From positions 1 to 64,000 of the forward strand of contig JABDHD010000005.1 in NCBI GenBank assembly GCA_013285685.1: a stretch of 64,000 nt of DNA, read 5' to 3'. The position numbers and the translations under genes are program-made. This document shows positions 12,665 through 60,539 of this stretch, piece by piece. Within the stretch, counting starts at the first letter, position 1. Each line of letters begins with the position of its first letter. This stretch comes from Bacteroidota bacterium (GTDB lineage: Bacteria > Bacteroidota > Bacteroidia > Sphingobacteriales > Sphingobacteriaceae). The notes beneath the pieces were generated by a model. That model was not told where the DNA came from. It saw only the letters and a program-made list of their open reading frames with translations, and did no database searches.

Positions 12665-13269
12665 TTCTCGTGATTTTTCCAATTGGAGGCGAAAATACTT
12701 GAAATGTTACACGCTTAAAGACAAAATTTTGTCATTGGATTGCAATTGGTCGTTCAATGTCGTTGACTTAAGAGTACCCTAAAAAAGCAAGAAGCTAAAG
12801 TCCTCTCCTTTGGAGAGCACGTGTTTAGCGATTGATAACTGTGAAATATGGAGTTATATTTAGTTGGTAGTGTGAGCGTTATGATAGCTCCCCTCTCGAG
12901 AGGGGGTGCGCTGGGATTGCGTTGTGGCGGGGGTGTGTTAACCGACATATCCAATAACACACCCCTCCACCCCTCTCAAGAGGGGAACCGACGAAGGAGC
13001 TCATGGATGCCTATAAAAAACAAATTATAACATCCATAATCGCACTGCCCTCCGCTTTTTGGTAACCCTTTTCATTTTTTTTATTCGCTAAACACATACT
13101 TTGGAGAAAATTTAAGTGAGGCGAAAATGCCAGGCGAACCCTTAAGTCACCGACATTGATTGGTCATTGGTCATTGGTCATTGGTAGTGCTATTGATCCT
13201 TGGACCGATTAGGAGTAACCCGATTTTGAAACAGTAATTATCCGAAAACGCACCAATGACTAATGACTA
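12665..13269. other. Intergenic region with several dispersed palindromes
   Basis: Between two leftward genes. It holds a GCTAAAGTC-CTCTCC-GGAGAG unit at about 12793-12826 (the family also found inside leuS), CCCCTCTCGAGAGGGGG at 12890-12906 and CCCCTCTCAAGAGGGG at 12971-12986 enclosing a GGGGGTGTGTTA / TAACACACCCC inverted pair, and three GGTCATT heptads at 13159-13184. No convincing open reading frame is present. Confidence 0.75.
12890..12986. repeat. Nested palindromic element (CCCCTCTCGAGAGGGG / GTGTGTTA-TAACACAC)
   Basis: Two short C4TCTC/GAGAG4 palindromes flank an inverted pair GGGGTGTGTTA and TAACACACCCC. The whole block could fold into a multi-branched hairpin. No transposase or target duplication is visible. 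Confidence 0.65.
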
Positions 13270-42340: not shown

Positions 42341-42394
42341 TTTTTTTCTGGGATTTCACCGATTATGGAATGATTTCACCGATTTATATTTGTT

Positions 42395-42418
42395 TTTTTT
42401 GCCAACTGCCACTGCTAC
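42395..42418. repeat. Hexamer run after a permease stop
   Basis: GCCAACTGCCACTGCTACTT, CTGCCA/CTGCTA units directly after the stop of the gene at 42419-44851 (minus strand). The rest of this 78-base spacer carries two GATTTCACCGATT copies. Confidence 0.6.
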
Positions 42419-44851: not shown

Positions 44852-44853
44852 GG

Positions 44854-44925
44854 TTCATTTGTTCACTGGTTCATTAGTTCATTGGTCCTGGCTGCTTTTT
44901 AACTGCAAACTGCCACTGCCCACTG
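44854..44925. repeat. Spacer arrays TTCATTAG and CTGCCACTG
   Basis: On the coding strand the order is stop, GGCAGT units, a short AT segment, then AATGAAC octads, then the next ATG. Units: GGTTCACTGGTTCATTAG and CAAACTGCCACTGCCCACTG. Confidence 0.7.
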
Positions 44926-44929
44926 TTTC

Positions 44930-47347
44930 CTATTCGCTTCTCAAACTCTCCACCGGATTGGCAATAGCCGCCCTTATAGTATGGTAGCTAATGGTAATAA
45001 ACGCCAGTAAAAGGGTTGCTGCTGCCGATAACAAAAATATCCACCAGTTTAACGTAACCCGGTAGGCAAAAGCCTGCAGCCATTTGTTCATCAAATACCA
45101 GGATATTGGCACCGCTATTGCAAATGCGATGAGCACCAGTTTTAAAAACGAAGCTGATAATAGTCCGGTAATGTTGGAAACTGTTGCGCCGAGCACTTTG
45201 CGGATACCGATTTCCTTAACCCGCTGTTCGGCAGCCAGCGTTGTAAGCGCAAATAAGCCCAGGCTGGAGATCAATATGGCTATAAACGCCGCATAGGTGG
45301 TTATCATTTTCCATTGCTCTTCATCAGCGTATAGCTTTCGGTTCCAGTCGTCCAAAAAGTTATAGCTAACCACATCATAGGGCAGCGCGGCCTTTACGGA
45401 TGATTGGATAGCCGCGATGGTTTGCGCGGCCTTCCCGGTTTGGTACTTGACAAAAAGATGCAGCGTTTCGCCATTTCTATCCAGTGCAAAATACATCGGC
45501 TCTATCTTTTTCTTGAACGTATTGGAATGATAATCTTTTACTACCCCAACGATTTGCATGGGGCGCCGTTTGTCCATTGCAGGGCCACCAATTATCTGTC
45601 CGACCGGGCTGTGGCCGGCATCCATATAAGTTTTAACAAACGACTCGTTCACCAGGCAATTCGAGATGGTATCCGACGGATTACTATAGCTCAGGTACCG
45701 GCCCTTAACGAGGGGAATATTTAACAGCTGCAGGTAATGATCGTCGATGTACTCAAAATAAGTCCAGTCGGTTTCTTTTTTGTTGACCGTCAGCACGGTT
45801 TTGTTATAATCGCCCGCCTTCGCTCCCAGCATTTGTATAAAAGGGCGTTTGGCCAGTTCATTTTTTATCTGGTTCATTTCAGCCTTTTTGCCCCAGGGCA
45901 AATCAACCCGCACAATATTTTGGGTGGCGTAGCCCTGGTCTGAATGGGTCATGAAGTTAAATTGGTGCTGGAATACGATTGTGCTTATGATCAACACCAG
46001 CGCAATAACAAATTGCAGCACCACCAGCGATTTGCCGAGCGTATTCTTTCCGGAAAGCTTGAACCGCCCGTAAAGTGTTTGCACCGGATTGAAGCCCGAG
46101 GCCACAAATGATGGATAGAAACCGGCCAGCAGCGATACCAGCAGCCACAAACCTGCAAACAACAACACTATTTTTAGCTGGAATAAATAACTGATATCAA
46201 AATGCTTATCCGCCAGCTGGCTAAATTCGGGCAGAAATAGCTGCACCATAATTATAGCCGGAACAAAGGCCAGGGCGGTGATAAGGGCCGATTCACTCAA
46301 AAACTGGAGTACCAACTGCGGTTTTGAACTGCCGGAAACTTTCCGTATCCCGATCTCTTTGTTACGCTTTACCGATCGCGCCAGCATAATATTGATAAAA
46401 TTGATACAGGCAATAAGTAAAATTAAAACCCCCAGCGCGACCAGGATATAAGAGCTTGATATGTCGCTCGAGTCGCTCAGGCCGTTGCTTACATTATATA
46501 CTTTGGTAAGGTGCATTTGCAAAAAGGGCTGCAACAGATAGGTTTGCGACACATTTTTGCCATAATGCTTTTTAAACTTCGCCCAATTTTCACCGTTGTA
46601 TTTATAAAAAGACCGTTCAAATTTATGCTGAACCCGGGGAGCGTCGGCTGCGCTGCGCAATAGAAAAAAAGTATTTAAAAAGGTGCTGTTCCAGTCGTTC
46701 ATTTCGCTGTTGCGCCCTTTGGCATCGGTGGGCAAACTTCGCTCGAACGGAATCAGCATATCAAATTGAATAGTTGAATTGATGGGCGCACTTTTAACAA
46801 CGCCGGTTATCAAAAAAGGCTCCAACTTGTCGTCAACCTGTATCTCCACCGTTTTTCCGGTGACATTCGTGGTACCGAAACTTTTCACCGCCTGTTTATC
46901 CGATAATACAACCGAATTACGGCTCTCCAACAGGTTATTCGAAGCGCCTGATATCACCGGGAACGAGAATAGCTTAAAAAAGGAAGGATCGGTAAACAGC
47001 ACTTTTGCCTGCAGCGCAGTGTTCCCGGCTTTGGTGGTCATATCCCAGCCGTTAAGCCTGCAATAATTTTCAATTCCGGGGATGTCGGCAGCAAAATCAG
47101 GCCCCTGGGGAACTCCGGTGATACCGCGCGGATATTTGTTACCCGAAGAGTCGGTATAAACGTTCACCAGCCTGAACAATTGTTTGCCCTTTACCTGGAA
47201 TTTATCGTAGCTAAATTCATCATTCACAAAAAGCATGATCAGCATGGTGCAGGCAAGGCCGATGCTTAAGCCGGCAATATTTACAAACGATAAAACCTTA
47301 TTCCGGCTAAGGCTTCTGAATGCGGTGATGATGTAGTTTTTTATCAT
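44930..47347 (-). CDS. MacB/FtsX-family ABC permease (third in the series)
   Basis: 805 residues, MIKNYIITAFRSLSRNKVLSF at the start and NPVESLRSE at the end. The first FtsX block reads CINFINIMLARSVKRNKEIG followed by IRKVSGSS and the second TLAAEQRVKEIGIRKVLGAT. The first periplasmic domain is unusually different in sequence from the other four (RFSYDKFQVKGKQLFRLVNV-like and PRGITGVPQGPDFA), so it may serve a different partner. The usual two-fold plan is intact, with no truncation. There is no ATP-binding gene beside it. Confidence 0.9.
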   Translation of the reverse strand: MIKNYIITAFRSLSRNKVLSFVNIAGLSIGLACTMLIMLFVNDEFSYDKFQVKGKQLFRLVNVYTDSSGNKYPRGITGVPQGPDFAADIPGIENYCRLNGWDMTTKAGNTALQAKVLFTDPSFFKLFSFPVISGASNNLLESRNSVVLSDKQAVKSFGTTNVTGKTVEIQVDDKLEPFLITGVVKSAPINSTIQFDMLIPFERSLPTDAKGRNSEMNDWNSTFLNTFFLLRSAADAPRVQHKFERSFYKYNGENWAKFKKHYGKNVSQTYLLQPFLQMHLTKVYNVSNGLSDSSDISSSYILVALGVLILLIACINFINIMLARSVKRNKEIGIRKVSGSSKPQLVLQFLSESALITALAFVPAIIMVQLFLPEFSQLADKHFDISYLFQLKIVLLFAGLWLLVSLLAGFYPSFVASGFNPVQTLYGRFKLSGKNTLGKSLVVLQFVIALVLIISTIVFQHQFNFMTHSDQGYATQNIVRVDLPWGKKAEMNQIKNELAKRPFIQMLGAKAGDYNKTVLTVNKKETDWTYFEYIDDHYLQLLNIPLVKGRYLSYSNPSDTISNCLVNESFVKTYMDAGHSPVGQIIGGPAMDKRRPMQIVGVVKDYHSNTFKKKIEPMYFALDRNGETLHLFVKYQTGKAAQTIAAIQSSVKAALPYDVVSYNFLDDWNRKLYADEEQWKMITTYAAFIAILISSLGLFALTTLAAEQRVKEIGIRKVLGATVSNITGLLSASFLKLVLIAFAIAVPISWYLMNKWLQAFAYRVTLNWWIFLLSAAATLLLAFITISYHTIRAAIANPVESLRSE

Positions 47348-47349
47348 GG

Positions 47350-47440
47350 GTATCGGTTCATTAGTTCACTGGTTCATTAGTTCATTAGTATTAGCGCTTT
47401 TTTAATTGGCAACTGCTACTGCCAACTGCACTCTGCCAAC
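47350..47440. repeat. Spacer arrays TTCATTAG and CTGCCAACTG
   Basis: GGTTCATTAGTTCACTGG with further TTCATTAG units, then GGCAACTGCTACTGCCAACT and CTCTGCCAACT. Same order of arrays relative to stop and start as in the other permease spacers. Confidence 0.7.
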
Positions 47441-47442
47441 TC

Positions 47443-49869
47443 TCACTCGCTTTTCAAACTGCTTACCGGGTTACTCATTGCCGCTTTTATGGATTGATAG
47501 CTTACCGTTGCAAAAGCGATGACAATTGCGACAATGCCTGCCAGCGCCAGTATGTACCAATGAATAGCTGTTCGATAGGCAAAGCCTTGTAAAAACAGAT
47601 TTTGCATTACCCACCAGGCTGCCGGTGTGGCAACAATTATAGCAATGATAACCAACTTTATAAAGTCGAACGAAAGCATGCTTACAATGCCAGATACCTG
47701 CGCGCCCAAAACTTTGCGGATGCCAATTTCCTTGGTGCGCTGCTCCGCCGCATAAGCGGCCAGGCCGAATAAACCCAGGCAGGCGATAATAATGGCTAGC
47801 GAAGTAAATACTATTGATAGTTTGCCCATGCGCTGCTCCGAGGAATAAAGGTTGTTAAAATCCTCGTTCAGAAAGGCATAGCTGAACTGCTGTTTGGGCG
47901 ACAGCTGGTTCCAGATGGCCCTGATCTGCTCGATTACCGGCTTCGGGTTATCGCTGCTGAGCTTTACAGTTAAATCGGCGTTGTTTGGCTCATATCTCAG
48001 TATCAGCGGGCCGATATTATCCCTGAGCGAGCTAAAATTAAAATCCCTGAGCACCCCGATTACATGGTACGATTTAAATTGCTTGCCAAAATCGTCCTGC
48101 GGGCGGTACAAAAGTTGGTTAAGCGGATCCCGGAGCCCCAACAAACGCGCTGCCGATTCATTCACGATCATTGCTGTTGAATCGGTCGCCATTTTCTCTG
48201 AAAAATTCCGGCCCGATAAGAGCGTCATCCCAAGTGTTGGTATATAATCCGGGTCCACATCCCAAAGCTGCGTAAGGGTGCCCTGCTGCGCATTCATACT
48301 ATGATCTTTAAAAACTGATCCGTTATTACGCCAGCCGTTTACAGGGGTGTAGCCGGTTAGCGTTGCATTGCGAACGCCGGCCAATTGCTTTACTTCCTGT
48401 TTTAGTACCCGTGCCCGATCACCAAGCGCTGATACGTTGTAAACCGATAATACCTGGTCACGATTGTAGCCAAGGTTTTTATTTTGAATATATTTTAACT
48501 GGTTATAGATCACCAGCGTACCGATAATCAGGAATATGGATATGGCAAACTGGAAAACAACCAGGAAACTGCGTAAATAGCTATTGCGAAAGCCCCCGGC
48601 AAGTTTGCCTTTAAGCACCTGGACAGGCTGGAACGCGGAAAGGTACAGGGCCGGATAGGCGCCAGCAAGGCACCCGATGATAAAAACAACTGCCAATAAA
48701 ACAGGGCACAATATGAACAATACATGTGGTGTAACGGTCAGTTGTTTGCCGGAGACCTGGTTAAACAGTGGCAGCAACAGATATGCTGCAAATACCGCGA
48801 TCAATGCAGCAATAAAGGCAACGATTATCGCTTCGGTTAAAAACTGGTAAACCAGGTATTTGCGGGGTGAGCCCAGCACCTTGCGTACACCCACTTCGCG
48901 GGCACGGCCTGCAGAGCGGGCAGTAGATAAATTGATAAAATTAACACAGGCGATCAGCAAAATAAACAGGGCGACAGCTGAGAAAATGTATACGTACTGG
49001 ATGTTACCGTTTTGCCCCATTTCGGCAATTTTGTTGGACCGCAAGTGAATATAGGCGAGGGGCATCAGCGAGAAACTAAAACGGTTGCCGCTTTTTTCGA
49101 ACTTTTCGATACTGGTATGCAACGCGGCCTGCAATTGAGAGCCCACGTAATCGTGAACTATTTTTGGCAATGCTGCCGCTATTTTTGCCGGGCCGGCGCC
49201 AGGTTTTAACAACAGGTAAGTTTGAAAGTTACTGCTTAGCCAGGTATTTTCCCTGCTCTCATTTAACGTTAGCATCGAAATAAAGAAATCGAAGCGGAAG
49301 TGGGATTGCATGGGGATATCTTTGATAACTGCAGTTATTTTAAACGGCTTGTCATCATTGAATACGAGTGTTTGTCCCACTACATTCTCCCGGTTAAAAT
49401 ATTTTTTGGCCATGCTTTCCGTTAAAACCACCTCGTTTGGTTCAGTCAAAGCGGCGTGGTTGTCTCCATAAACAACAGGCAGGGTAAACACCTTAAATAT
49501 CGAATTATCGCAGTAGGTGACATAATCTTCGTGAATATTCTGCGTTCCCTTTTTAACCTGGAAACTGCCGGCCTGGCGGAAGCGGACAGTGCTCTCAATT
49601 TCAGGAAATTGACCTGCCAGCGTAGCCGCCAGCGGTGCCGGGCAAACCGCATCCTGTGACAGGTCGCCGTTGTATTTTACATCCTCGTCTACCCGGTAAA
49701 TGCGGTCGAAATTTTTATTGAAATGATCGTAACCCAGTTCATCGCTAACATAAAAAACGATCAGCAGGCAGGTTGCCAGGCCGACGGACAATCCCAAAAC
49801 GTTTAATAAGGTAAAGCCTTTATTTTTTGAAAGGCTTCGGTAAGCAGTTTTGATGTAGTTTCGTATCAT
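47443..49869 (-). CDS. MacB/FtsX-family ABC permease (second in the series)
   Basis: 808 residues, starting MIRNYIKTAYRSLSKNKGFT and ending NPVSSLKSE. It is the closest relative of the gene at 49998-52424: same length, the same N-terminus, and shared FtsX blocks CVNFINLSTARSAGRAREVG with VRKVLGSPRKYLVYQFLTE, and YAAEQRTKEIGIRKVLGAQ. The pair looks like the most recent duplication in the array. Both periplasmic domains are intact. ATP-binding subunit not found nearby. Confidence 0.92.
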   Translation of the reverse strand: MIRNYIKTAYRSLSKNKGFTLLNVLGLSVGLATCLLIVFYVSDELGYDHFNKNFDRIYRVDEDVKYNGDLSQDAVCPAPLAATLAGQFPEIESTVRFRQAGSFQVKKGTQNIHEDYVTYCDNSIFKVFTLPVVYGDNHAALTEPNEVVLTESMAKKYFNRENVVGQTLVFNDDKPFKITAVIKDIPMQSHFRFDFFISMLTLNESRENTWLSSNFQTYLLLKPGAGPAKIAAALPKIVHDYVGSQLQAALHTSIEKFEKSGNRFSFSLMPLAYIHLRSNKIAEMGQNGNIQYVYIFSAVALFILLIACVNFINLSTARSAGRAREVGVRKVLGSPRKYLVYQFLTEAIIVAFIAALIAVFAAYLLLPLFNQVSGKQLTVTPHVLFILCPVLLAVVFIIGCLAGAYPALYLSAFQPVQVLKGKLAGGFRNSYLRSFLVVFQFAISIFLIIGTLVIYNQLKYIQNKNLGYNRDQVLSVYNVSALGDRARVLKQEVKQLAGVRNATLTGYTPVNGWRNNGSVFKDHSMNAQQGTLTQLWDVDPDYIPTLGMTLLSGRNFSEKMATDSTAMIVNESAARLLGLRDPLNQLLYRPQDDFGKQFKSYHVIGVLRDFNFSSLRDNIGPLILRYEPNNADLTVKLSSDNPKPVIEQIRAIWNQLSPKQQFSYAFLNEDFNNLYSSEQRMGKLSIVFTSLAIIIACLGLFGLAAYAAEQRTKEIGIRKVLGAQVSGIVSMLSFDFIKLVIIAIIVATPAAWWVMQNLFLQGFAYRTAIHWYILALAGIVAIVIAFATVSYQSIKAAMSNPVSSLKSE

Positions 49870-49904
49870 GGTTGGTCATTTGTTCACTGGTTCATTAGTT
49901 CATT

Positions 49905-49995
49905 GTCAGAACCGTTGATTAAGCTGATTGGGCTGATTTCGCTGAGAACTGCCATCAATAAAATCATCTTAATCAGCTTAATCAACGGTTCAGAC
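49905..49995. repeat. GTCTGAACC-type long inverted repeat (copy 2)
   Basis: GTCAGAACCGTTGATTAAGC with TGATT at 49905-49929 pairs with AATCAGCTTAATCAACGGTT with CAGAC at 49971-49995, with one mismatch near the tip. It fills the spacer between two permease genes beside a TTCATTAG array. Confidence 0.88.
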
Positions 49996-49997
49996 AA

Positions 49998-52424
49998 TCA
50001 TTCACTTCTCAAACTCTCCACCGGGTTTGATAACGCGGCTTTTACTGATTGAAAACCTATGGTAATAATTGCGATCAGTATCGCCATAAAACCTGCCAAC
50101 GCCAGTTCCCACCATTGTATATTTACGCGATAGGCAAAATCCTGCAGCCACTTGTTCATTAAATACCATCCTGCAGGCAGTGCGATAAGTATTGCAATAA
50201 ATACCAGCTTTATAAAATCAAACGATAGCATAGTGGTAATGGCCGATACACTTGCACCCAAAACCTTGCGGATACCGATCTCTTTGGTACGCTGCTCGGC
50301 AGCATAAGCCGCCAAACCAAACAGGCCAAGGCAGGCTATTATCAATGCCAGGGAAGTAAACACAATGGATACAGCGCCCGCACGCTGCTCGGCCTTGTAT
50401 ATCGCTTCAAAATCCTGGTCCATAAACGAAAAATTCATCTGGACGTTTGACAATCCGCTCCATTTATCCTTTATCTGCGACAGCAGGACCGGGATATTCT
50501 TCGCGTTCATCCGGATACTTAAAGCACCGTTATTGTGGCCCATTACCAAAACCATCGGACTTACCACATCGCGCAGCGAGGCAAAATTAAAGTCCTTAAC
50601 TACCCCGATAATGTGGTATTCTTTGGAGTTTGACACCACCTGTTCGCCACCGTTTGAGCGGTACAAGGGTTTGTTTAAGGGATCGTCAAGGCCTAAAAAT
50701 TTGGCGGCTGCTTCGTTAATGATAATAGCCGATGAGTCCGTCAGCATCTCGCTCGAAAAGCTTCGGCCCGCGGCCATTTTCATGTCCAGCGTTTTTATAT
50801 AGTCTGCATCAACTTCCCAGGTTTGGGGGAACAGTGCTTTTTTCTGATCGAAGGAAGCATCTTTAAAAAATATGCTGGTATTTTTCTGGTTGGCGGTTGG
50901 CAAATAGCCGGTAAGCGTAGCATCGTCAACGCCCGGTATTTGTTTTACCTCCTGTTTAAAGGTTTGCGCCTGGTTACCTAACTCAAATGCATTTTGAATA
51001 ATGAGCACCTGGCTACGGTTGTAGCCGAGATCTTTGTTTTGAATAAAATTAAGCTGGTTGTGTATAACCAAAGTGCCTACAATGAGAAAAATAGATATGG
51101 AAAACTGCAAAACCACCAGGAAACTCCGCAAACCGCCGCCTTTAAACCCTGCCGATAATTTACCTTTCAGCACATTAATGGGTTGAAAGGCCGAAAGAAA
51201 TAATGCAGGGTATGCACCAGCCAGTGATCCTACTATTAAAATGATAGCCAGCAACGCCGGAATAAGCCAGCTGAGCATTTGCCCATTAATAACCATGTTT
51301 TTACCCGACAATTGGTTAAATGCGGGCAATAATGCCGAGGCAGCGATAAAAGCGATTACCGTAGCTACAAGCGTAATTAAAATGGATTCGGTAAGAAACT
51401 GGAACACCAGGTATTTTCGCGGCGAGCCAAGCACCTTGCGCACGCCCACCTCGCGGGCGCGGTTGGATGAACGGGCCGTGGACAGATTCATGAAGTTGAC
51501 GCAGGCAATTAATAAGATAAAAATGGCAATTGCCGAAAAAATGTAAACATATTGAATGGTGCTATTTGGCCCCAACTCGCCGGTGCGGTTTGATTTGAGG
51601 TGAATATCTGTTAACGCGGTTAAGTTCAGCCTGAAATAGCTCCCGCTTTTTTCGAACGCCGCAGTATTCATTTTCAATTGCGACTGCATTTGCTGCCCGC
51701 TGTATTTGTTAAGGAAAGCAGGCAACGCGGCCTCGAGTTTTTTATGATCGGCGGCGCTCTTAAATAAAACATAGGTATTATAGTCACTTCTTAACCATTC
51801 GTCCGACCGGCTATCCGGAAACGTAGACATGGAAATGAAGAAATCAAAATTAAAATGAGAAGTCCGGGGTATATCTTTTATTACGCCGGTGATCTTGTAA
51901 GCATTTTGATTGTCAAATGTTAACGTTTTGCCTACAACATTGGTGCTGGTAAAGTATTTTTTTGCAGTCGATTCGGTTAGCACTACGCTGTTAGGCTCGG
52001 CAAGTGCCGTTTGGGGGCTGCCGCTGATCATCGGCAACGTAAATACGTCGAACAACGAAGGATCGGCAAAAGCCATATTATTTTCAAGAATGGTTTCCGT
52101 CCCTTTTTTAACGTGGTGCGAACCGGCATTTTTTAGCCGTACTGTATTTTCAACATAAGGGAATTCGCTTTTAAGGGTTTGCGCCAAAGGCGGCATGCAC
52201 ACAGCGTAGAGCACATTATTTTCGCCAAGCTTCAGGTCTTCATTTACGCGGTAAATGCGGTCGGCTTTGGTATTGTAGCGGTCGTAGCTTAGTTCATCAA
52301 CAACGTAAAATATGATCAGCAGGCAGCTGGCCAGCCCCAAAGACAAGCCAAGGACATTTAAAATGGTGAAGCCTTTGTTTTTTACAAGGCTCCGGTATGC
52401 GGTTTTGATGTAGTTGCGTATCAT
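49998..52424 (-). CDS. MacB/FtsX-family ABC permease (first in the series)
   Basis: 808 residues, first gene of the leftward array. Beginning MIRNYIKTAYRSLVKNKGFT, ending NPVESLRSE. FtsX blocks: CVNFMNLSTARSSNRAREVG with VRKVLGSPRKYLVFQFLTE, and YAAEQRTKEIGIRKVLGAS. Two large periplasmic domains are predicted. A long upstream spacer (350 bases) may hold the operon promoter, but no clear -7 box was identified on the minus strand. Family members without their own ATPase are thought to share one encoded elsewhere or, by one idea, to act in envelope stress signalling. Confidence 0.92.
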   Translation of the reverse strand: MIRNYIKTAYRSLVKNKGFTILNVLGLSLGLASCLLIIFYVVDELSYDRYNTKADRIYRVNEDLKLGENNVLYAVCMPPLAQTLKSEFPYVENTVRLKNAGSHHVKKGTETILENNMAFADPSLFDVFTLPMISGSPQTALAEPNSVVLTESTAKKYFTSTNVVGKTLTFDNQNAYKITGVIKDIPRTSHFNFDFFISMSTFPDSRSDEWLRSDYNTYVLFKSAADHKKLEAALPAFLNKYSGQQMQSQLKMNTAAFEKSGSYFRLNLTALTDIHLKSNRTGELGPNSTIQYVYIFSAIAIFILLIACVNFMNLSTARSSNRAREVGVRKVLGSPRKYLVFQFLTESILITLVATVIAFIAASALLPAFNQLSGKNMVINGQMLSWLIPALLAIILIVGSLAGAYPALFLSAFQPINVLKGKLSAGFKGGGLRSFLVVLQFSISIFLIVGTLVIHNQLNFIQNKDLGYNRSQVLIIQNAFELGNQAQTFKQEVKQIPGVDDATLTGYLPTANQKNTSIFFKDASFDQKKALFPQTWEVDADYIKTLDMKMAAGRSFSSEMLTDSSAIIINEAAAKFLGLDDPLNKPLYRSNGGEQVVSNSKEYHIIGVVKDFNFASLRDVVSPMVLVMGHNNGALSIRMNAKNIPVLLSQIKDKWSGLSNVQMNFSFMDQDFEAIYKAEQRAGAVSIVFTSLALIIACLGLFGLAAYAAEQRTKEIGIRKVLGASVSAITTMLSFDFIKLVFIAILIALPAGWYLMNKWLQDFAYRVNIQWWELALAGFMAILIAIITIGFQSVKAALSNPVESLRSE

Positions 52425-52774: not shown

Positions 52775-53683
52775 ATGAAATATAAATTATTAGCCCTGGT
52801 TTTATTTATAAGCTCAGCCGGCTTTGCGCAAACCGATGCCAAACTAACTTCGGCCTTACAGGACGCCATAAAAGGCTTCAACGGCCAGGTGGGCATTTAC
52901 GTGCAAAACCTAAAAACGGGCAAAACGGCAGCCATCAATGCCGACACGCTCTTCCCTACCGCCAGCATGGTAAAAGTGAGCATACAGTGCGGGTTGATGG
53001 ACAAGATTGAGAAAGGTGAAATTCAATATAATCAGAAAATTGTTTACAGGGATTCGCTGCTGTATAAGGGCGAGGATATTTTAGGATCGTTTAAGGACGG
53101 GGACACCATCGAAGTAAGCAAGGTTGCCATGCTAATGATCACTATGAGCGACAATACAGCAAGCCTGTGGCTGCAAAAACTGGTTGGTACCGACTATATT
53201 AACAATTGGCTCGCTACCAACGGTTTTAAAGTTTACCGCGATAATTCGCGTGCAACCGGCAGGGACGAGATGCACAAAAAATATGGCTGGGGCGTTACCA
53301 CGCCTTACGAAATGTGCCGCATATTTACGATGATCGAAAACGGCCAGGCCGTTAGCCCGGCGGCCAGTGAAAGGATGATCCGCAACATGGGCCGTATATT
53401 TTGGGACAATACCGCCTTGTCGCAAATTCCTCCAAATATCCACACCATTTCCAAACAAGGCTCACTGGATGATTACCGGTCGGAAACGGTGCTGGTAAAT
53501 GCCCCGCATGGCGATTATGTATTTTGCGTCATCACCAACAATAACAAGGACCAGCGCTGGACCCAGGATAATGAGGCCGATGTTTTTATACGAAAAATAT
53601 CCGCATTGCTGTGGCATTATTACGAACCGCAAAACACCTGGCAACCCGCGGCGGGTATTGACAAGTATATGAAGGATGAGTAG
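52775..53683 (+). CDS. Secreted serine hydrolase, class A beta-lactamase fold
   Basis: A 302-residue exported protein (signal peptide MKYKLLALVLFISSAGFAQ). The SxxK is SMVK in PTASMVKVS, the SDN triad is in MSDNTAS, and the third box is KQGS in TISKQGSLDD rather than KTG. The omega-loop Glu of class A beta-lactamases (ExxLN) is not obvious. It is therefore a serine hydrolase of the PF13354-like fold, perhaps a DD-peptidase or esterase; beta-lactam resistance should not be assumed. The gene is alone on its strand before the FkbH cluster. Confidence 0.8.
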   Translation: MKYKLLALVLFISSAGFAQTDAKLTSALQDAIKGFNGQVGIYVQNLKTGKTAAINADTLFPTASMVKVSIQCGLMDKIEKGEIQYNQKIVYRDSLLYKGEDILGSFKDGDTIEVSKVAMLMITMSDNTASLWLQKLVGTDYINNWLATNGFKVYRDNSRATGRDEMHKKYGWGVTTPYEMCRIFTMIENGQAVSPAASERMIRNMGRIFWDNTALSQIPPNIHTISKQGSLDDYRSETVLVNAPHGDYVFCVITNNNKDQRWTQDNEADVFIRKISALLWHYYEPQNTWQPAAGIDKYMKDE

Positions 53684-53788: not shown

Positions 53789-53896
53789 CAACCGCGACGA
53801 ACGCTGAGAAGGTGCAAAGAACACAGAGAAAATAAGGCTAACAAACCATTAAAGCTTTGCGACCTCCGTGTCTTCCTTTGCGTTCTCTGCGGTTAA
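53789..53896. repeat. ACCNC...GAGAA long inverted repeat (copy B)
   Basis: Left arm AACCGCGACGAACGCTGAGA with AGGTGCAAAG, right arm CCTTTGCGTTCTCTGCGGTT. Its plan equals copies A (20188-20295) and C (56581-56685), but the arm sequence differs. It ends 28 bases before the FkbH start. Confidence 0.8.
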
Positions 53897-53924
53897 ATCT
53901 TCCATAGTTTAGCTATAAAGAAGA

Positions 53925-55652
53925 ATGAAAGCATTTTCCCAATTAAGGAAAAACTTAAAAAACGACTTTTCAAATTTAAAGCCGGTAAAAATTGCCTTAC
54001 TGGGGGACACTGCAACACAATTTCTTTCGGTTGCGCTGAGGGGGGCAGGGTTTGATCTGGGATTTGATCTGCAAATTTGGGAAGCTGATTTTGACCAGGT
54101 AGAATGGCAAATTTTCGATCCGGCTTCAGAGTTTTACCAATTTAACCCGGAAGTAGTCGTGATATTTCAATCTTCACACCGGCTGCTGCAAAAATACAAC
54201 AAGCTAAAACCCGAAGAATATAGCAGCTTAGCGCAAAATGAATTACAGCTTATCGAAAGTTTGCAAACGGCTGTCAATGCCAAACTAAATTCAAAGATCA
54301 TTTACTACAATTATGCTGAAATAGATGATGCCATATTTGGTAATTATGCCAATAAGATCGCGTCCTCGTTCATTTTTCAGGTTCGTAAGCTTAACTACGA
54401 ATTGATGCTGTATGCCGAAAAACTACCGGGGTTTTACATTTGCGACCTTTCTTCTATTCAAAATAACATCGGTAAAGCAACCATTTTCCGGCCTGCAATG
54501 TACATCAATACAGAAATGGTTTTGAGTATCGATGTTTTACCGGCCATTGCTTTAAGAACGGTTGAACTTATTGGCGCCCTATACGGCAAATTTAAAAAAT
54601 GCCTGGTTTTTGACCTCGACAACACGATATGGGGCGGTGTAATTGGCGATGATGGACTGGAACATATTCAGCTTGGTACATTAGGGATTGGAAAGGCTTA
54701 TACGGAATTGCAGTACTGGATAAAAAAACTGAAAAACCGGGGCATTGTCCTGGCTGTATGCAGCAAAAATACCGAATCCGTTGCTAAAGAACCTTTTGAA
54801 AAACATCCGGACATGGTATTACGGATGGACGACATATCAGTTTTTGTGGCCAATTGGGAAAATAAGGTGAGCAATATCAGGCAAATTCAAAACACGCTTC
54901 ATATAGGTTTTGATTCGATGGTTTATTTAGATGATAATCCTTTTGAACGAAGCATGGTTGGCGAGCACATACCGGCGCTTACTATCCCGGACTTACCGGG
55001 AGACCCGGCAGATTACCTGGAATATTTGTACACCCTGAATTTATTTGAGACCGTTTCTTTTTCAAATGAAGATACGGAAAGAACAAAGCAATACCAGGTG
55101 GAGGTTGAGCGAAATGCAGGAAAACATGAGTACGTTGATGAATACGCCTTTTTAGAAAGCCTGGACATGATTTGCCATATAGAGCCTTTTAATCGATTTA
55201 ATGCGCCGAGGGTTGCCCAGCTTTCACAAAGGTCAAATCAGTTCAATTTAAGAACTGTGCGTTATACAGAAGCTGACATTGAAATGCTGGCATCATCGGC
55301 CGATCATTATAATTTCACTTTTACATTAAAGGATAAATTCGGCGACAACGGGCTGATCTGTGTGGTAATTCTGCATAAAGAAAACAGCGAAACCCTATTT
55401 ATAGACACCTGGCTGATGAGTTGCAGGGTTTTAAAACGGGGGATGGAAAATTTCGTATTGAATACAGTCACTTTTTTCGCTAAAACCAATGGATTTAAAT
55501 CTTTAAAAGGCGAATACCTGGTAACTCCAAAAAACGGGATCGTAAAAAACCACTACCGTGATCTTGGTTTTCGTGAAGAGGGCGCTTTTTGGATATTAAA
55601 TCCGGCTGAATATCAATCTAAAAAAAGCCATATCAAGAAAAGTGATGAATGA
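53925..55652 (+). CDS. FkbH-like HAD-IIIC protein
   Basis: A 575-residue multidomain protein. Residues 1-215 form an N-terminal part with a GDT element (ALLGDTAT) as in other FkbH-like proteins; the HAD core starts CLVFDLDNTIWGG (Asp230, Asp232), followed by CSKNT and VYLDDNPFER; the C-terminus resembles a GNAT-like domain (NFTFTLKDKFGDNGLICVVI). FkbH proteins dephosphorylate 1,3-bisphosphoglycerate and pass glycerate to an ACP thiol in methoxymalonyl and glyceryl pathways. An ACP gene lies downstream (56712-56954), which supports that role. Its stop overlaps the next start, so it begins a probable operon. Confidence 0.9.
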   Translation: MKAFSQLRKNLKNDFSNLKPVKIALLGDTATQFLSVALRGAGFDLGFDLQIWEADFDQVEWQIFDPASEFYQFNPEVVVIFQSSHRLLQKYNKLKPEEYSSLAQNELQLIESLQTAVNAKLNSKIIYYNYAEIDDAIFGNYANKIASSFIFQVRKLNYELMLYAEKLPGFYICDLSSIQNNIGKATIFRPAMYINTEMVLSIDVLPAIALRTVELIGALYGKFKKCLVFDLDNTIWGGVIGDDGLEHIQLGTLGIGKAYTELQYWIKKLKNRGIVLAVCSKNTESVAKEPFEKHPDMVLRMDDISVFVANWENKVSNIRQIQNTLHIGFDSMVYLDDNPFERSMVGEHIPALTIPDLPGDPADYLEYLYTLNLFETVSFSNEDTERTKQYQVEVERNAGKHEYVDEYAFLESLDMICHIEPFNRFNAPRVAQLSQRSNQFNLRTVRYTEADIEMLASSADHYNFTFTLKDKFGDNGLICVVILHKENSETLFIDTWLMSCRVLKRGMENFVLNTVTFFAKTNGFKSLKGEYLVTPKNGIVKNHYRDLGFREEGAFWILNPAEYQSKKSHIKKSDE

Positions 55653-56553
55653 GCATATCAATTATATCTGTAAAAGGATTGAAGTTTTAAGCCCTATCCA
55701 TAGCAAAAAACTCAAAAAGAATAGGACGTTTTTTGACGAACGATATGATGAGTTAGCTGATGTTTTTTTTAAAAAATATCTCCGCGTCTTACAGCTCGAA
55801 AACAAAACATTAGATTATGCGATAGCTTGCTACCTGCAAATGTTAGCAGACGTAACCAATGAGACCGTCGAATTTTTGCGCACCGGGAAATATACCAGCA
55901 CCACCTTTGAGGAAGTGAATAAGCGGGTGTACGCCAGCCCCGGGGTCATGGAATATTACATGCACGGCTTACTGCTATCCCAATTTTTATTTAAGCACCA
56001 CTATCAAACGCTTACCTTTTTTACAGACACTTTACCGCAGTATGTAAATACAACTAAAAGCTACCTTGAAGTTGGCGTGGGGCATGGGCTTTACCTTTCC
56101 AGCGCATTAGATATCCTGGATAGTAAAACTACATTCACCGTTGTGGATATAAGTGAAACCTCCATCCAATTTGCGAAAAACCTTATAAACGACACCCGCG
56201 TTGAATATAATTTAAGGGATATTTTTGATTTCGATAAAGGCGAAAAATATGACTTCATCACGCTTGGCGAAGTGCTGGAACATGTTGAAGACCCATTGGG
56301 GCTATTGTTAAAATTAAACGATCTGCTGAGCGATGATGGCGTTTTGTTTTTTACTACGCCAACAAATGCACCGGCTATTGACCATATTTACCTTTTTAAC
56401 AATGTTGACGAAATACGGGATATCGTAAGGTCTGCCGGCTTTCAAATAGCGTCTGAGAGGTCTTTTCTGTCTGAAGATGTTTCTGCTGAAAGAGCCGAAA
56501 AATATAAAATAGCTGTGTTATATGATGCATTTTTGAAAAAAATCTCGCGCTGA
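55645..56553 (+). CDS. SAM-dependent methyltransferase (class I)
   Basis: About 302 residues. The ATG at 55645 is preferred over a GTG one codon earlier; both overlap the end of the FkbH gene. Residues 1-125 are a helical N-domain; the SAM fold follows with motif I YLEVGVGHGLYLS, VVDISETSIQFA, then ITLGEVLEHVEDP and GVLFFTTPTNAPA. This is a class I small-molecule methyltransferase of the Methyltransf_23 type. In known FkbH clusters a methyltransferase O-methylates the ACP-bound glyceryl unit, so a similar job is possible here but not shown. The stop is followed by a 160-base spacer with a long inverted repeat before the ACP gene. Confidence 0.85.
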   Translation: MNEHINYICKRIEVLSPIHSKKLKKNRTFFDERYDELADVFFKKYLRVLQLENKTLDYAIACYLQMLADVTNETVEFLRTGKYTSTTFEEVNKRVYASPGVMEYYMHGLLLSQFLFKHHYQTLTFFTDTLPQYVNTTKSYLEVGVGHGLYLSSALDILDSKTTFTVVDISETSIQFAKNLINDTRVEYNLRDIFDFDKGEKYDFITLGEVLEHVEDPLGLLLKLNDLLSDDGVLFFTTPTNAPAIDHIYLFNNVDEIRDIVRSAGFQIASERSFLSEDVSAERAEKYKIAVLYDAFLKKISR

Positions 56554-56580
56554 ATCATGTTAAAAAAGCAAATTACATTT

Positions 56581-56685
56581 TACCACAAAGAACACAAAGT
56601 AAAAGACACAAAGGCCACAAAGCTTTAATAGTTTGCCAATTTTTTTCTTTGTGTTCTTTGCGCCTTCTTTGTGTTCTTTGTGGTA
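56581..56685. repeat. ACCACAAAGAACACAAAG long inverted repeat (copy C)
   Basis: Left arm TACCACAAAGAACACAAAGT followed by AAAAGACACAAAG, right arm CTTTGTGTTCTTTGCGCC and CTTTGTGTTCTTTGTGGTA. It is the longest and cleanest of the three copies and lies inside the FkbH cluster between the methyltransferase and ACP genes. Confidence 0.88.
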
Positions 56686-56711
56686 AAACTCTTAACAACT
56701 TATATGGAATT

Positions 56712-56954
56712 ATGGATAAAAACGAAATATTGAAAAAAGTGAATGCGATTTTTATTGATATACTCGACGATGAAAATATCGTACTGACTTATGAAACTAC
56801 AGCCAATGATGTTGAAGACTGGGACTCGCTAAATCACATCCAATTGGTTGTTGCTATTGAAAAACAATTTAAGATCCGGTTTACGTCAAAAGAAATTCAA
56901 AGCTGGAACAATGTGGGCGAAATGGTTAATTCTGTAAGTTTAAAGCTAAACTGA
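56712..56954 (+). CDS. Acyl carrier protein
   Basis: An 80-residue ACP from ATG 56712; the longer frame upstream runs through repeat sequence. The phosphopantetheine attachment Ser is Ser39 in VEDWDSLNHIQLV, with the usual acidic helices and a final helix (EMVNSVSL). It is not FabA-type context: it lies among FkbH, VOC and MBOAT genes, so it probably carries a specialised acyl or glyceryl group. A four-helix ACP fold fits well. It would need a separate phosphopantetheinyl transferase, which is not in this window. Confidence 0.92.
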   Translation: MDKNEILKKVNAIFIDILDDENIVLTYETTANDVEDWDSLNHIQLVVAIEKQFKIRFTSKEIQSWNNVGEMVNSVSLKLN

Positions 56955-56960
56955 TATCCT

Positions 56961-57341
56961 ATGAAATTTCATCATGTCGGCGTTGCGTGCAAAAATATCG
57001 ATGAAGAGATTGTAAATATTTCTACGATCCACCAGGTTATTGAAAGGAGCCCGACGGTTTTTGATAAGGAACAAAATGCCGAATTAGCTTTATTGACCCT
57101 GGCAGATGGTACCCGCATAGAATTAATATCGGGCAAACCTGTTGAAACGCTGTTAAAAAAAAATATCACCTATTATCACCTATGTTTTGAGGTAGACGAC
57201 ATCAATGTGGAGATAGACCGGCTTGTTAATGCCGGCGCTTTTTTAATAGCCGAACCAAAGCCTGCAGTATTGTTTAATAACCGAAAAGTTGCCTTTTTAA
57301 ATGTTTCGTACGGCATAATTGAATTGCTCAACTCAAAATAA
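56961..57341 (+). CDS. VOC-superfamily protein (glyoxalase/epimerase-like)
   Basis: A 126-residue protein with the paired beta-alpha-beta pattern of the vicinal oxygen chelate fold. Likely metal ligands are His5 (FHHVGVA), Glu54 (TRIELI), His73 (YYHLCFEV) and Glu121 (YGIIELL), the order expected for methylmalonyl-CoA epimerase-like proteins. It starts six bases after the ACP stop and is followed by MBOAT after eight, so it is part of the operon. Epimerisation or isomerisation of the ACP-bound unit would fit the context; no substrate is shown. Confidence 0.8.
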   Translation: MKFHHVGVACKNIDEEIVNISTIHQVIERSPTVFDKEQNAELALLTLADGTRIELISGKPVETLLKKNITYYHLCFEVDDINVEIDRLVNAGAFLIAEPKPAVLFNNRKVAFLNVSYGIIELLNSK

Positions 57342-57349
57342 ACAAGCAG

Positions 57350-58804
57350 ATGCTTTTCACCTCGGTCACCTTCGTTTTTTTTATCGCGGTGTTTTTTATT
57401 TTGTACTGGTATGTTTTGGGCGGAAACCTTAAACTTCAAAACGTTTTAATTTTAACGGGTAGCTATATTTTTTATGCCTGGTGGGACTGGCGTTTTCTTT
57501 TCCTGCTCGCAAGCAGTTCGACGCTAAATTTTTTTTTAGCCATCTGGATCGCCAAAAGCAAAAATGAAAAATACCGCGGCTTTTTACTTTGGATAGGCTT
57601 GTGCATTGGCTTGGGCAGTTTGCTCTTTTTTAAATATTTCAATTTTTTTGTTGTATCTCTTGTCAACGCTTTCAGTGTTTTTCACATACAATCAGACATT
57701 CATACACTTAATATTATCCTGCCGCTGGGGATAAGTTTTTACACCTTCAGATCACTGAGTTATTTATTGGATATTAAGAGCGAAAAAATTAAGCCCACTA
57801 CGGATTGGGTGGTATTCTATTCTTATGTGTCTTTTTTTCCATGCCTGCTTTCGGGACCAATTGACCGGCCCAAAACGCTGATACCACAGTTAGAAAAGAA
57901 ACGGGTATTTGATTACAGCCAGGCATCGGACGGGATGCGCCAGGTTTTGTGGGGCTTATTTAAAAAAATTGTAATTGCCGATAATTGCGCCGCACTTACC
58001 AATCCCATTTTTGAACACTATAAATTTTTACCGGCCAGTTCCCTCCTTTTTGCTGTTTTTCTTTTTACCATCCAGCTTTATGCCGATTTTTCCGGGTATT
58101 CGGATATGGCCATCGGGATTGCCAGCCTGCTGGGATTCAGAATTACCAGGAATTTTAATTTCCCTTTTTTCGCCCAAAGCATACCAGATTTTTGGCGGAG
58201 GTGGCACATCTCCCTAACCAGCTGGTTAACGGATTATGTGTTTACGCCATTAAGCATCTATTTCAGGGATTATGGAAAAGCCGGGCTGATATTGGCCATT
58301 TTAATAAATTTTACGGCCATTGGCATCTGGCACGGCGCAAACTGGACCTTTATTACATTCGGTTTTTTGCATGGCTGCTTTTATATCCCATCCATATTGC
58401 GCGGCACTATTAATAGAAATAAAAAGAATAGCCGCATAAACGGCGGGCGATTTTCATTGAGCGCTTTTATAAGCATGGTCGCAACGTTTATGCTGTTAAT
58501 GCTCACTTTTATTATTTTTCGGGCTGATAACCTCGCGCGGGCTTTTGATTATTACAGTAAACTATTTTCCCGGTCGATACTCTACCGTTTTACTATAACC
58601 GAAAAAGTGAATACAATAGCAACGTTGACCGCTATAGTTATGATGTTATGTGCAGAGTGGCTGCAGCAGGATAAACAGCATGCTTTGCAAATCGATGTTA
58701 TCAAAAGGTTTCCGGTTCGGGCTTTGATTTATTTTGGTTTGATATTTATGATACTTTTTTTTAGTCCGCCCACAATTACTGATTTTATTTATTTCAAATT
58801 TTAA
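57350..58804 (+). CDS. MBOAT-family membrane O-acyltransferase
   Basis: A 484-residue polytopic membrane protein with about ten helices. The catalytic His occurs in IWHGANWTFITFGFLHG, and the region FPCLLSGPIDRP and FWRRWHISLTSWLTDYVF are typical of DltB/AlgI/PatA-type MBOAT enzymes. Such enzymes pass acyl groups from an intracellular donor across the membrane to surface polymers or lipids. The ACP gene (56712-56954) two genes upstream suggests that the donor may be ACP-bound, as DltB takes from DltC. The acceptor is unknown. Confidence 0.93.
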   Translation: MLFTSVTFVFFIAVFFILYWYVLGGNLKLQNVLILTGSYIFYAWWDWRFLFLLASSSTLNFFLAIWIAKSKNEKYRGFLLWIGLCIGLGSLLFFKYFNFFVVSLVNAFSVFHIQSDIHTLNIILPLGISFYTFRSLSYLLDIKSEKIKPTTDWVVFYSYVSFFPCLLSGPIDRPKTLIPQLEKKRVFDYSQASDGMRQVLWGLFKKIVIADNCAALTNPIFEHYKFLPASSLLFAVFLFTIQLYADFSGYSDMAIGIASLLGFRITRNFNFPFFAQSIPDFWRRWHISLTSWLTDYVFTPLSIYFRDYGKAGLILAILINFTAIGIWHGANWTFITFGFLHGCFYIPSILRGTINRNKKNSRINGGRFSLSAFISMVATFMLLMLTFIIFRADNLARAFDYYSKLFSRSILYRFTITEKVNTIATLTAIVMMLCAEWLQQDKQHALQIDVIKRFPVRALIYFGLIFMILFFSPPTITDFIYFKF

Positions 58805-58810
58805 GCTGAA

Positions 58811-59722
58811 ATGAAAAAACCAATAAACAGGTTCCTGCTGAAACTACTGCTGTTCATCATGCCTGTATTAGTTTTTTTCGAGGTGCTGTTTCGTTTGGGC
58901 TTTGCCCCGATCGTTACAGATTCAACACTTTTTGATTTAAAAATGCTGGCAGTTCAAAAACATCAAGTTAAAAATATAAAGCTGTTGGCAATGGGCTCGT
59001 CCATAACCTTATATGAATTGAATTCGGATAGTATGGTCCAAAATTTTAAATTACCTTATTATAATTTTGCATCCTGGGGCCTGCAAATGGCCGATATGAA
59101 CAGGCTGTTAAACAGTTTGGTAAAAACAAATCAACCAAAATATGTCGTAATATGTTCGTCGTTCCCTGATTTCGTCTCTCCTCCAAATAACTCTTATTTA
59201 AATTATATCAACGCCAATAGTTTTATAAAAGACGATTTTCCGGAGCTTTTCTACTTTAAAAATTATAACTCCATACACCAGGTCATCCGCAGAAAATTTA
59301 ATACCTACCCCCTGTCGCTTGATAATTGGGGGGGCGCATCATTAAGCGTTAAACTGAGAAATGTAAATAGCGAGAAGTGGAATGAGCATGATATATTCCC
59401 AACAAAATACACGCAGGCCAACTATAAGGCGCTGGATTCTTTAAGCGCTTTTTTGAATGAACAAAAGATCAAATTGATATTTGTGCAGGTTCCGATAAAA
59501 AAGTCTTATACGAACACTGATCGATCCAAACAACTCATATTAGCGCATTTTGATAGCTGCAAGTCGATTGTTGAAGGGAAGGGCGGTATCTATTTAAATT
59601 ACTACAATCCCACTATTTTTACCGACAGCTTGTTTATTGATCAATACCACCTGCAGCAGGCTGGTTCCACAATATTAACCAGCGAAATAGTTGCCGACCT
59701 GAAGAAAATCATCAAACAATGA
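58811..59722 (+). CDS. SGNH-type membrane-anchored protein, MBOAT partner
   Basis: A 303-residue protein with an N-terminal signal anchor (FLLKLLLFIMPVLVFFEVLF) and an SGNH-like extracytoplasmic domain: block I MGSSITLYELNSD supplies the Ser, and FIDQYHLQQAGS gives the late Asp and His of the catalytic set. The gene starts six bases after MBOAT. MBOAT-SGNH pairs such as AlgI with AlgJ/AlgX or DltB with DltD complete transfer of the acyl group to the polymer outside the membrane, which is the likely role here. Confidence 0.8.
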   Translation: MKKPINRFLLKLLLFIMPVLVFFEVLFRLGFAPIVTDSTLFDLKMLAVQKHQVKNIKLLAMGSSITLYELNSDSMVQNFKLPYYNFASWGLQMADMNRLLNSLVKTNQPKYVVICSSFPDFVSPPNNSYLNYINANSFIKDDFPELFYFKNYNSIHQVIRRKFNTYPLSLDNWGGASLSVKLRNVNSEKWNEHDIFPTKYTQANYKALDSLSAFLNEQKIKLIFVQVPIKKSYTNTDRSKQLILAHFDSCKSIVEGKGGIYLNYYNPTIFTDSLFIDQYHLQQAGSTILTSEIVADLKKIIKQ

Positions 59723-59726
59723 ATTC

Positions 59727-60539
59727 ATGAAAAAACAAATCACTTGTTTAGCAATTTTAAGCACCCTGGTGTTTATAAGTTTGCGTTCATTTTCTCAAAC
59801 CGAAACACAAGGCAACTATTTTACATCGTTTGACAGCACAAAGATCTATTACGAGGTAAAAGGCAGCGGCTACCCTGTAATATTGGTTCATGGGTTTTCG
59901 GGCACCGGGCAGGGATGGAAAACCTGTGCCGTTTATAACGACCTGCTGAATGCGGGATACCAGGTAATATTGATAGATCAGCGCGGCAACGGCCGTTCCG
60001 ATAAACCGCATACCGATGCAGCCTATGCAAACGATGCCGAGGCCAAAGATATCATGGGCCTGATTAGCTTTCTAAATATAAAACAGTATAATGCCGTGGG
60101 TTACTCGCGCGGCTCTATTATCACTTCAAGGCTTTTGGTATTGGACAAGCGCCTGCATAAAGCGGTTATGGGCGGCATGGGCGATGCTTATACCAATCCC
60201 GACTGGCCGCGCCGTGTACACGCTTACCGCGCTTTGATGGGCGATACTACGCTGCATGATGTGGATGACATGATGAAATACATTCACAGCCAGCATTTTG
60301 ATGAGCTGGCGCTTGCACTACAGCAAAAATACCAGCCCTCCACCAGCCCCGCAGAACTGGCTGCAGTAAAAATCCCGGTTTTGATCATTCGCGGGACCGA
60401 AGACAAGGAAAACGGTTCCGAAACCGGTTTAAATAAACTGATACCCAAATCCGGCCTCGTTTATGTTCCGGGTAACCATAATACGGCTATCCGTGCGCCA
60501 GAATTTGGTGACGCCGTGCTAAAATTTTTAAAAGATTAG
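59727..60539 (+). CDS. Secreted alpha/beta hydrolase
   Basis: A 270-residue protein with a signal peptide (MKKQITCLAILSTLVFISLRSFSQ) and a classic alpha/beta hydrolase domain: HGFSGTGQGW oxyanion region, DQRGNGRSDKP, nucleophile GYSRGS, then late Asp (IRGTEDKE) and His (GNHNTA). It starts four bases after the SGNH gene stop and so may belong to the cluster, for example removing acyl groups again. Ester or lactone substrates are possible; none is established. Confidence 0.85.
   Translation: MKKQITCLAILSTLVFISLRSFSQTETQGNYFTSFDSTKIYYEVKGSGYPVILVHGFSGTGQGWKTCAVYNDLLNAGYQVILIDQRGNGRSDKPHTDAAYANDAEAKDIMGLISFLNIKQYNAVGYSRGSIITSRLLVLDKRLHKAVMGGMGDAYTNPDWPRRVHAYRALMGDTTLHDVDDMMKYIHSQHFDELALALQQKYQPSTSPAELAAVKIPVLIIRGTEDKENGSETGLNKLIPKSGLVYVPGNHNTAIRAPEFGDAVLKFLKD

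Follow-up and report, generated by a model that had tools for sequence, protein, structure and literature searches.

The Dlt system (DltABCDX) combines a carrier-protein thioester as acyl donor with a DltB-type MBOAT acyltransferase, an SGNH partner protein and a Tyr shuttle motif. In Dlt and Pat, the Tyr of this motif (on DltX and PatA, respectively) carries the acyl group from the MBOAT to the SGNH protein (PMC12148441). PatA/PatB and other MBOAT-SGNH pairs that O-acetylate peptidoglycan, alginate or cellulose have an FXYXXF motif fused to the C terminus of the MBOAT and an anchored SGNH protein; such non-Dlt systems have no comparable carrier protein, and acyl-CoA is their presumed donor (PMC12148441). 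FkbH proteins occur with a carrier protein, and often an O-methyltransferase, in pathways to methoxymalonyl-ACP (acyl carrier protein), tetronates and the O-methylglyceryl units of polyketides and aeruginosin-type peptides. The surface-glycan cluster CA_C2186-CA_C2199 of Clostridium acetobutylicum holds a glyoxalase-like VOC protein, an ACP and a protein combining HAD and acetyltransferase regions (PMC4000134). Here we describe six genes for FkbH, a methyltransferase, an ACP, a VOC protein, an MBOAT and an SGNH protein in a 64,000-nucleotide stretch of DNA from a Sphingobacteriaceae bacterium (GenBank assembly GCA_013285685.1, contig JABDHD010000005.1, positions 1 to 64,000; hereafter the window).

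We consider it likely that these genes form a self-contained envelope-acylation cassette, in which FkbH loads the ACP, the methyltransferase and the VOC protein tailor the bound unit, and the MBOAT and SGNH proteins export it onto a polymer. The observed basis for this reading comprises the genes present and their order, their retention between unrelated flanks, the active-site residues and shuttle motif, and the fact that VOC alternates with MaoC plus a reductase at related loci. All six rightward genes proposed for positions 53925-59722 in an initial annotation of the window were confirmed at their coordinates on the + strand, and the features of the locus are as follows.

53925..55652, + strand: FkbH (TIGR01686, 289 bits, cut-off 146.65; PF21211, 240 bits)
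55645..56553, + strand: S-adenosylmethionine-dependent methyltransferase with a helical N-terminal part (Methyltransf_23, E 2e-17)
56578..56688: dispersed palindromic repeat of ~110 bp, found at ~40 places in the genome and without a role in cassette function
56712..56954, + strand: ACP of 80 aa (PF00550, 24.7 bits, cut-off 20.8), with Ser39 in the motif WDSL
56961..57341, + strand: VOC metalloprotein (Glyoxalase_4, E 1e-14), resembling methylmalonyl-CoA epimerase (MMCE) and glyoxalase I (GlxI)
57350..58804, + strand: MBOAT acyltransferase with a DltB-like core (PF03062, E 1e-16) and the C-terminal motif FIYFKF
58811..59722, + strand: membrane-anchored SGNH acyltransferase by predicted fold, with a helix at residues 7-28, Ser64 and D277-x-x-H280

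The FkbH and methyltransferase genes overlap by 8 nt, and 158 bases separate the methyltransferase gene from that of the ACP. The genes from ACP to SGNH are separated by 6, 8 and 6 bases, in near agreement with the 6-9 bases given initially. Promoter and terminator scans returned background levels only.

Evidence that the six genes belong together comes from related genomes. Mucilaginibacter sp. OK098 (locus L045) carries FkbH-MT-ACP-VOC-MBOAT-SGNH, where MT is the methyltransferase, in identical order and at 71-79% identity. When the larger open reading frames (ORFs) of this locus and the window were compared, the cassette genes alone matched and none of the flanking genes did; the ACP and VOC genes fall under the size limits of this comparison and were matched separately. 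Because no flanking gene is common to both loci, the cassette probably extends from the FkbH gene to the SGNH gene. An alpha/beta hydrolase gene (59727-60539) starts only 4 bases downstream of the SGNH gene; it and the outer-membrane proteins that follow were considered as further parts and rejected, as none is shared with the Mucilaginibacter locus.

The order FkbH-MT-ACP-VOC-MBOAT is kept at five further loci (L052, L065, L071, L096 and L121). Two consecutive MBOAT matches precede the SGNH gene in L052, possibly reflecting a split gene. In whole-genome searches, close relatives of this FkbH turned up sporadically, in 10 further genomes of 201 from the family and in 6 further genomes of 395 drawn from the phylum. 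We examined 96 FkbH loci in all, the 80 best of a named genome collection scan among them; in this set of best FkbH matches, which is not a random sample and contains related, non-independent loci, the operons include ACP in 89 cases, MBOAT in 64, MaoC in 36, SDR in 30, VOC in 22 and the methyltransferase in 14. Proportions were similar among the 92 loci that remained after those with FkbH at least 90% identical were dropped. Since the six-gene order recurs in Mucilaginibacter between unrelated flanks and its core recurs in most of the 96 loci, the cassette is a real unit and not a chance neighbourhood. Synteny in relatives, proposed initially as a check, is thus widely conserved in the form FkbH-ACP-(VOC or MaoC+SDR)-MBOAT-SGNH.

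Compared with described systems, the window joins a Dlt-type donor with a Pat-type shuttle. As in Dlt, a carrier protein, an MBOAT and an SGNH protein are encoded in one operon. In contrast to Dlt, the cassette has no DltA, its acyl group presumably being supplied by FkbH, and no separate DltX, the motif being placed on the C terminus of the MBOAT; it has additional methyltransferase and VOC genes, and its host is Gram-negative. The cassette does not qualify as a member of the Dlt family, given the missing DltA and a DltB score below cut-off. Unlike PatA/PatB-type pairs, the cassette operon holds an ACP and the enzyme predicted to load it. Unlike the FkbH pathways to polyketides and peptides, it lacks dehydrogenases, KAS III and polyketide or nonribosomal peptide synthetases (PKS/NRPS), and its acyl unit seems to be delivered to the envelope. 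The clostridial cluster differs in that its published neighbourhood table contains no MBOAT-SGNH pair, acyl transfer there presumably being carried out by other enzymes; from its domain description, CA_C2199 looks FkbH-like. No described system of the present kind was found in the open-licence full-text literature, an absence that is weak evidence.

FkbH consists of an N-terminal FkbH_N domain, a HAD-IIIC domain and a C-terminal part, scores 291 bits against TIGR01686 in the genome search (above the family cut-off) and has as its nearest PDB entry 3slr (BF1531 of Bacteroides fragilis, 502 bits). Residues D230, D232, S280, K281, D336, D337 and C500 are invariant in all 95 sequences compared. 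In the ACP, W37-D38-S39-L40 is invariant across 18 aligned sequences, and this protein is distinct from stronger-scoring ACPs on other contigs of the genome. AMP-ligases of the DltA type (PF00501) number zero on the window's contig and five elsewhere in the genome. Because the contig has no DltA-like loader, FkbH would be the only visible acyl source for the cassette.

The transfer machinery agrees well with the Dlt-like logic proposed at the outset: a DltB-like MBOAT with a conserved His, a C-terminal FXYXXF motif and an SGNH partner. The MBOAT matches DltB structures (E 1.5e-28) and the DltB model TIGR04091 (E 5e-50; 170.8 bits, below the cut-off of 375), and both H286 and H328 are conserved. 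Among full-length MBOATs of such operons, 70 of 71 end in FXYXXF, which in the window is FIYFKF at residues 479-484. The SGNH protein has no Pfam or NCBIfam match and no sequence match in the PDB. Its AlphaFold model (pLDDT 80) has the SGNH/GDSL fold with an N-terminal membrane helix (residues 7-28) and aligns to TesA, GDSL esterases and PatB with VIA-align Z scores of 15-17 (PatB: Z 16, rmsd 3.6 over 173 residues); DltD and AlgX were not among the fold matches listed, which excludes nothing. G62, S64, G174, P228 and H280 are invariant in 26 aligned SGNH sequences.

Evidence on the modifying enzymes comes from folds and from operon content. The predicted methyltransferase model (AlphaFold pLDDT 92) matches class I methyltransferases, and the fold search returned many of these with no specific substrate indicated. 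A phylum-wide search found this methyltransferase in two other genomes, next to ACP and FkbH in one and next to ACP and MBOAT in the other, and it is enriched with VOC (8 of 14 operons with the methyltransferase). For the O-methylglyceryl group of suomilide, the proposed route involves FkbH and an O-methyltransferase acting on carrier-bound glyceryl (PMC13122637, PMC10143770).

The VOC protein falls below the equivalog cut-offs of both TIGR03081 (33.9 bits; cut-off 115) and TIGR00068 (23.3 bits; cut-off 120). Its nearest PDB entries are 2qh0 and 3hdp, annotated as lactoylglutathione lyase/glyoxalase I; we take both to be the product of CA_C2192, probably the nearest solved relative. H5, E54, H73 and E121 align with His and Glu residues in these structures, are kept in aligned relatives and are presumably the metal ligands, as is general for this fold. 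Three of the seven other VOC matches in the phylum search adjoin FkbH and ACP. A single operon of the 96 contains both VOC and MaoC, where ~8 would be expected (Fisher p 1e-4; 3e-4 with near-duplicates removed; kinship ignored in both tests). That the two rarely share an operon indicates the same biosynthetic position, and VOC and MaoC plus reductase probably both act on the ACP-bound acyl group. The loci L080 and L084 have FkbH proteins that are 96% identical; the latter reads FkbH-MaoC-SDR-ACP and the former FkbH-ACP-MBOAT with neither modifier, a difference that we attribute to recent cassette exchange. Together with the VOC/MaoC pattern, this is the picture to be expected if different enzymes could tailor a single ACP-bound unit.

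A tree of 72 MBOATs, in which the labels VOC, MaoC and neither were compared with shuffled labels, bears on how the tailored units are recognized. Labels cluster overall (24 changes vs. 32.6 in shuffles), most clearly owing to the loci without a modifier (15 changes vs. 21.9; none of 500 shuffles gave so low a number). VOC and MaoC loci are mixed within clades, that of the window comprising 10 MaoC loci, 3 VOC loci and 1 with neither. The idea that MBOAT subtypes are specific to VOC or MaoC products was rejected on account of this interchange; the MBOATs may be more sensitive to whether a unit is modified than to which modification it bears.

From these data we infer every chemical step of the following scheme. 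By analogy with its family, FkbH would take the glyceryl group of 1,3-bisphosphoglycerate, hold it on a cysteine, remove the phosphate and load the dedicated ACP with D-glyceryl at its phosphopantetheine. The methyltransferase would then O-methylate a hydroxyl of the ACP-bound unit. The VOC protein may act on the 2-hydroxyacyl thioester, most likely inverting C2 via a metal-bound enediolate; this tentative step, the weakest of the scheme, is suggested because the fold and the four-residue metal site match enzymes that form such enediolates on thioesters. At the cytoplasmic face the MBOAT would accept the acyl group from the ACP and, at the periplasmic face, transfer it to its own Tyr481 in the C-terminal FIYFKF tail. 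The SGNH protein would receive it from the tail on Ser64 and esterify a periplasmic or surface polymer. The making, modification and transfer to the surface of an ACP-bound three-carbon unit, as initially envisaged, is therefore upheld in its logic by synteny, residues and fold; "glyceryl" proved too narrow a term for the family: with modifiers that differ by locus (VOC, MaoC plus reductase, methyltransferase or none), something other than plain glyceryl may be transferred.

Many related cassettes sit among genes for glycosyltransferases, a Wzx-type polysaccharide flippase, UDP-GlcNAc 2-epimerase and DegT aminotransferases. Because of this embedding in polysaccharide clusters, the acceptor is most likely a periplasmic or surface glycan; the surface acceptor had first been left open to glycans and lipids, of which the relatives make the former more likely and the latter less so. 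That the VOC protein epimerises carrier-bound glyceryl or O-methylglyceryl, so that the cassette would place L-configured or methylated glycerate on a surface glycan, is a possibility we hold only tentatively.

Several points weigh against the envelope-acylation reading or its individual steps. No family-2 glycosyltransferase gene was found within the window's 64 kb, and the acceptor is unlinked in this genome. C279 of FkbH, a candidate acyl-accepting cysteine, is kept in 79 of 95 sequences and replaced in 16 (C500 being invariant), and the substrate specificity of FkbH is not readable from its sequence. The methyltransferase could instead methylate the glycan, and the metal site of the VOC protein fits epimerase, isomerase or lyase chemistry equally. 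Some loci, L033 and L053 among them, have FkbH and ACP with no MBOAT nearby.

The ACP might also carry a different three-carbon unit. At loci with MaoC and a reductase we infer elimination of the 3-hydroxyl to give pyruvyl-ACP, followed by reduction to lactyl-ACP; were the VOC protein to make an equivalent 2-hydroxyacyl group, the polymer would be lactylated or methoxy-lactylated. Such loci are common (MaoC in 36 and SDR in 30 of 96, with an aldo/keto reductase (AKR) in the stead of SDR in L078), and VOC and MaoC+SDR precede MBOATs of one subclade, as the composition of the window's clade shows. However, the window operon contains no reductase or MaoC and a VOC protein alone cannot reduce, which makes this reading unlikely here. 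We consider it improbable that FkbH and ACP feed a small secreted metabolite of the methoxymalonyl or tetronate type beside a separate polysaccharide O-acetylation unit formed by the MBOAT and SGNH proteins. Polyketide pathways are the best-known setting of FkbH (PMC7489565), and MBOAT-SGNH pairs without FkbH are present in the family (L008-L012), yet the adjacency recurs in many genera and unrelated contexts, only a few bases lie between the ACP, VOC and MBOAT genes, and the operon has no PKS or KAS III. Dehydrogenases of the methoxymalonyl-ACP pathway (fkbGHIJK) were likewise absent from the six operon genes, one upstream gene and two downstream genes scanned.

The annotation of 2qh0 and 3hdp would suit a VOC protein that is a true glyoxalase I, one that uses the thiol of the ACP or of a small molecule to detoxify methylglyoxal and has no part in the acyl pathway. 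We give this little credence, as MaoC+SDR displaces VOC at the same place and the clostridial CA_C2192 belongs to a surface-glycan cluster that also includes acpA (CA_C2198) and the HAD/acetyltransferase protein CA_C2199 (PMC4000134).

If tailoring and export by the cassette proceed as proposed, central glycolysis would be linked directly to envelope decoration, MBOAT-SGNH acylation would extend from acyl-CoA to FkbH-made acyl-ACP donors, and VOC proteins of the cassette type would gain a function. If the VOC protein is an epimerase of carrier-bound glyceryl or O-methylglyceryl, a set of proteins that now bear the label glyoxalase I or methylmalonyl-CoA epimerase, the crystallised CA_C2192 among them, would act as 2-hydroxyacyl-ACP epimerases in the decoration of envelope glycans. 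O-glycans of Bacteroidota reportedly carry glyceroyl, glycero and methyl groups; in Tannerella forsythia, the gene behind the glyceroyl group has been called elusive (PMC6120980, PMC12871550). FkbH-ACP is a candidate source for glycerate decorations of bacterial glycans that lack known genes, and the cassette would offer a complete route for such a decoration, with residues to mutate. Since the Tannerella glyceroyl group is amide-linked, a transferase unlike that of the cassette would be needed there.

Variation among related loci extends beyond these patterns. In L039 (5245-15804), a single run contains one FkbH and MaoC-SDR together with two ACPs and three MBOAT-SGNH pairs, an arrangement that would suit the production of several acyl variants from one FkbH. 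Nine Chryseobacterium and Kaistella loci (L065, L066, L069, L070, L071, L072, L079, L081 and L096) have similar flanking gene sizes and different cassettes, with VOC accompanying one MBOAT subtype and no modifier or MaoC-SDR accompanying another. This suggests a variable surface locus, and different cassette versions in similar flanks are as expected of a variable surface trait. In L139, ACP-MBOAT pairs adjoin an ORF of ~514 aa and the same methyltransferase family, with no FkbH up to the contig end; the ORF is possibly an acyl-AMP ligase and the cassette possibly one with another acyl loader.

The ~110-bp palindromic element at 56578-56688 fills the gap between the methyltransferase and ACP genes and belongs to a repeat with ~40 distinct places in the genome. 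The sister operon in Mucilaginibacter has no such repeat between the two genes; because of its absence there, the methyltransferase gene was probably contiguous with the ACP gene originally. Two copies with arms CTTTGTGTTCTTTGTGGT, at 56578-56688 (+) and 53791-53898 (-), bracket FkbH-MT in opposite orientation, and a run of copies is found at G000:C49:27002-27635. A different, non-coding insertion of ~200 bp lies between ACP and VOC in the Mucilaginibacter locus (12897-13113). Each of the two operons is thus interrupted by a different element, and no gene is lost in either.

Just upstream of the cassette, positions 52775-53683 of the window encode a protein with a class A-like beta-lactamase fold (Beta-lactamase2, E 6e-44) and a signal peptide. 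Further upstream, five leftward genes of ~805 aa each follow in a row (39929-52424), their equal sizes suggesting a tandem family; one of them (49998-52424) reads as an ABC permease of the MacB/FtsX type.

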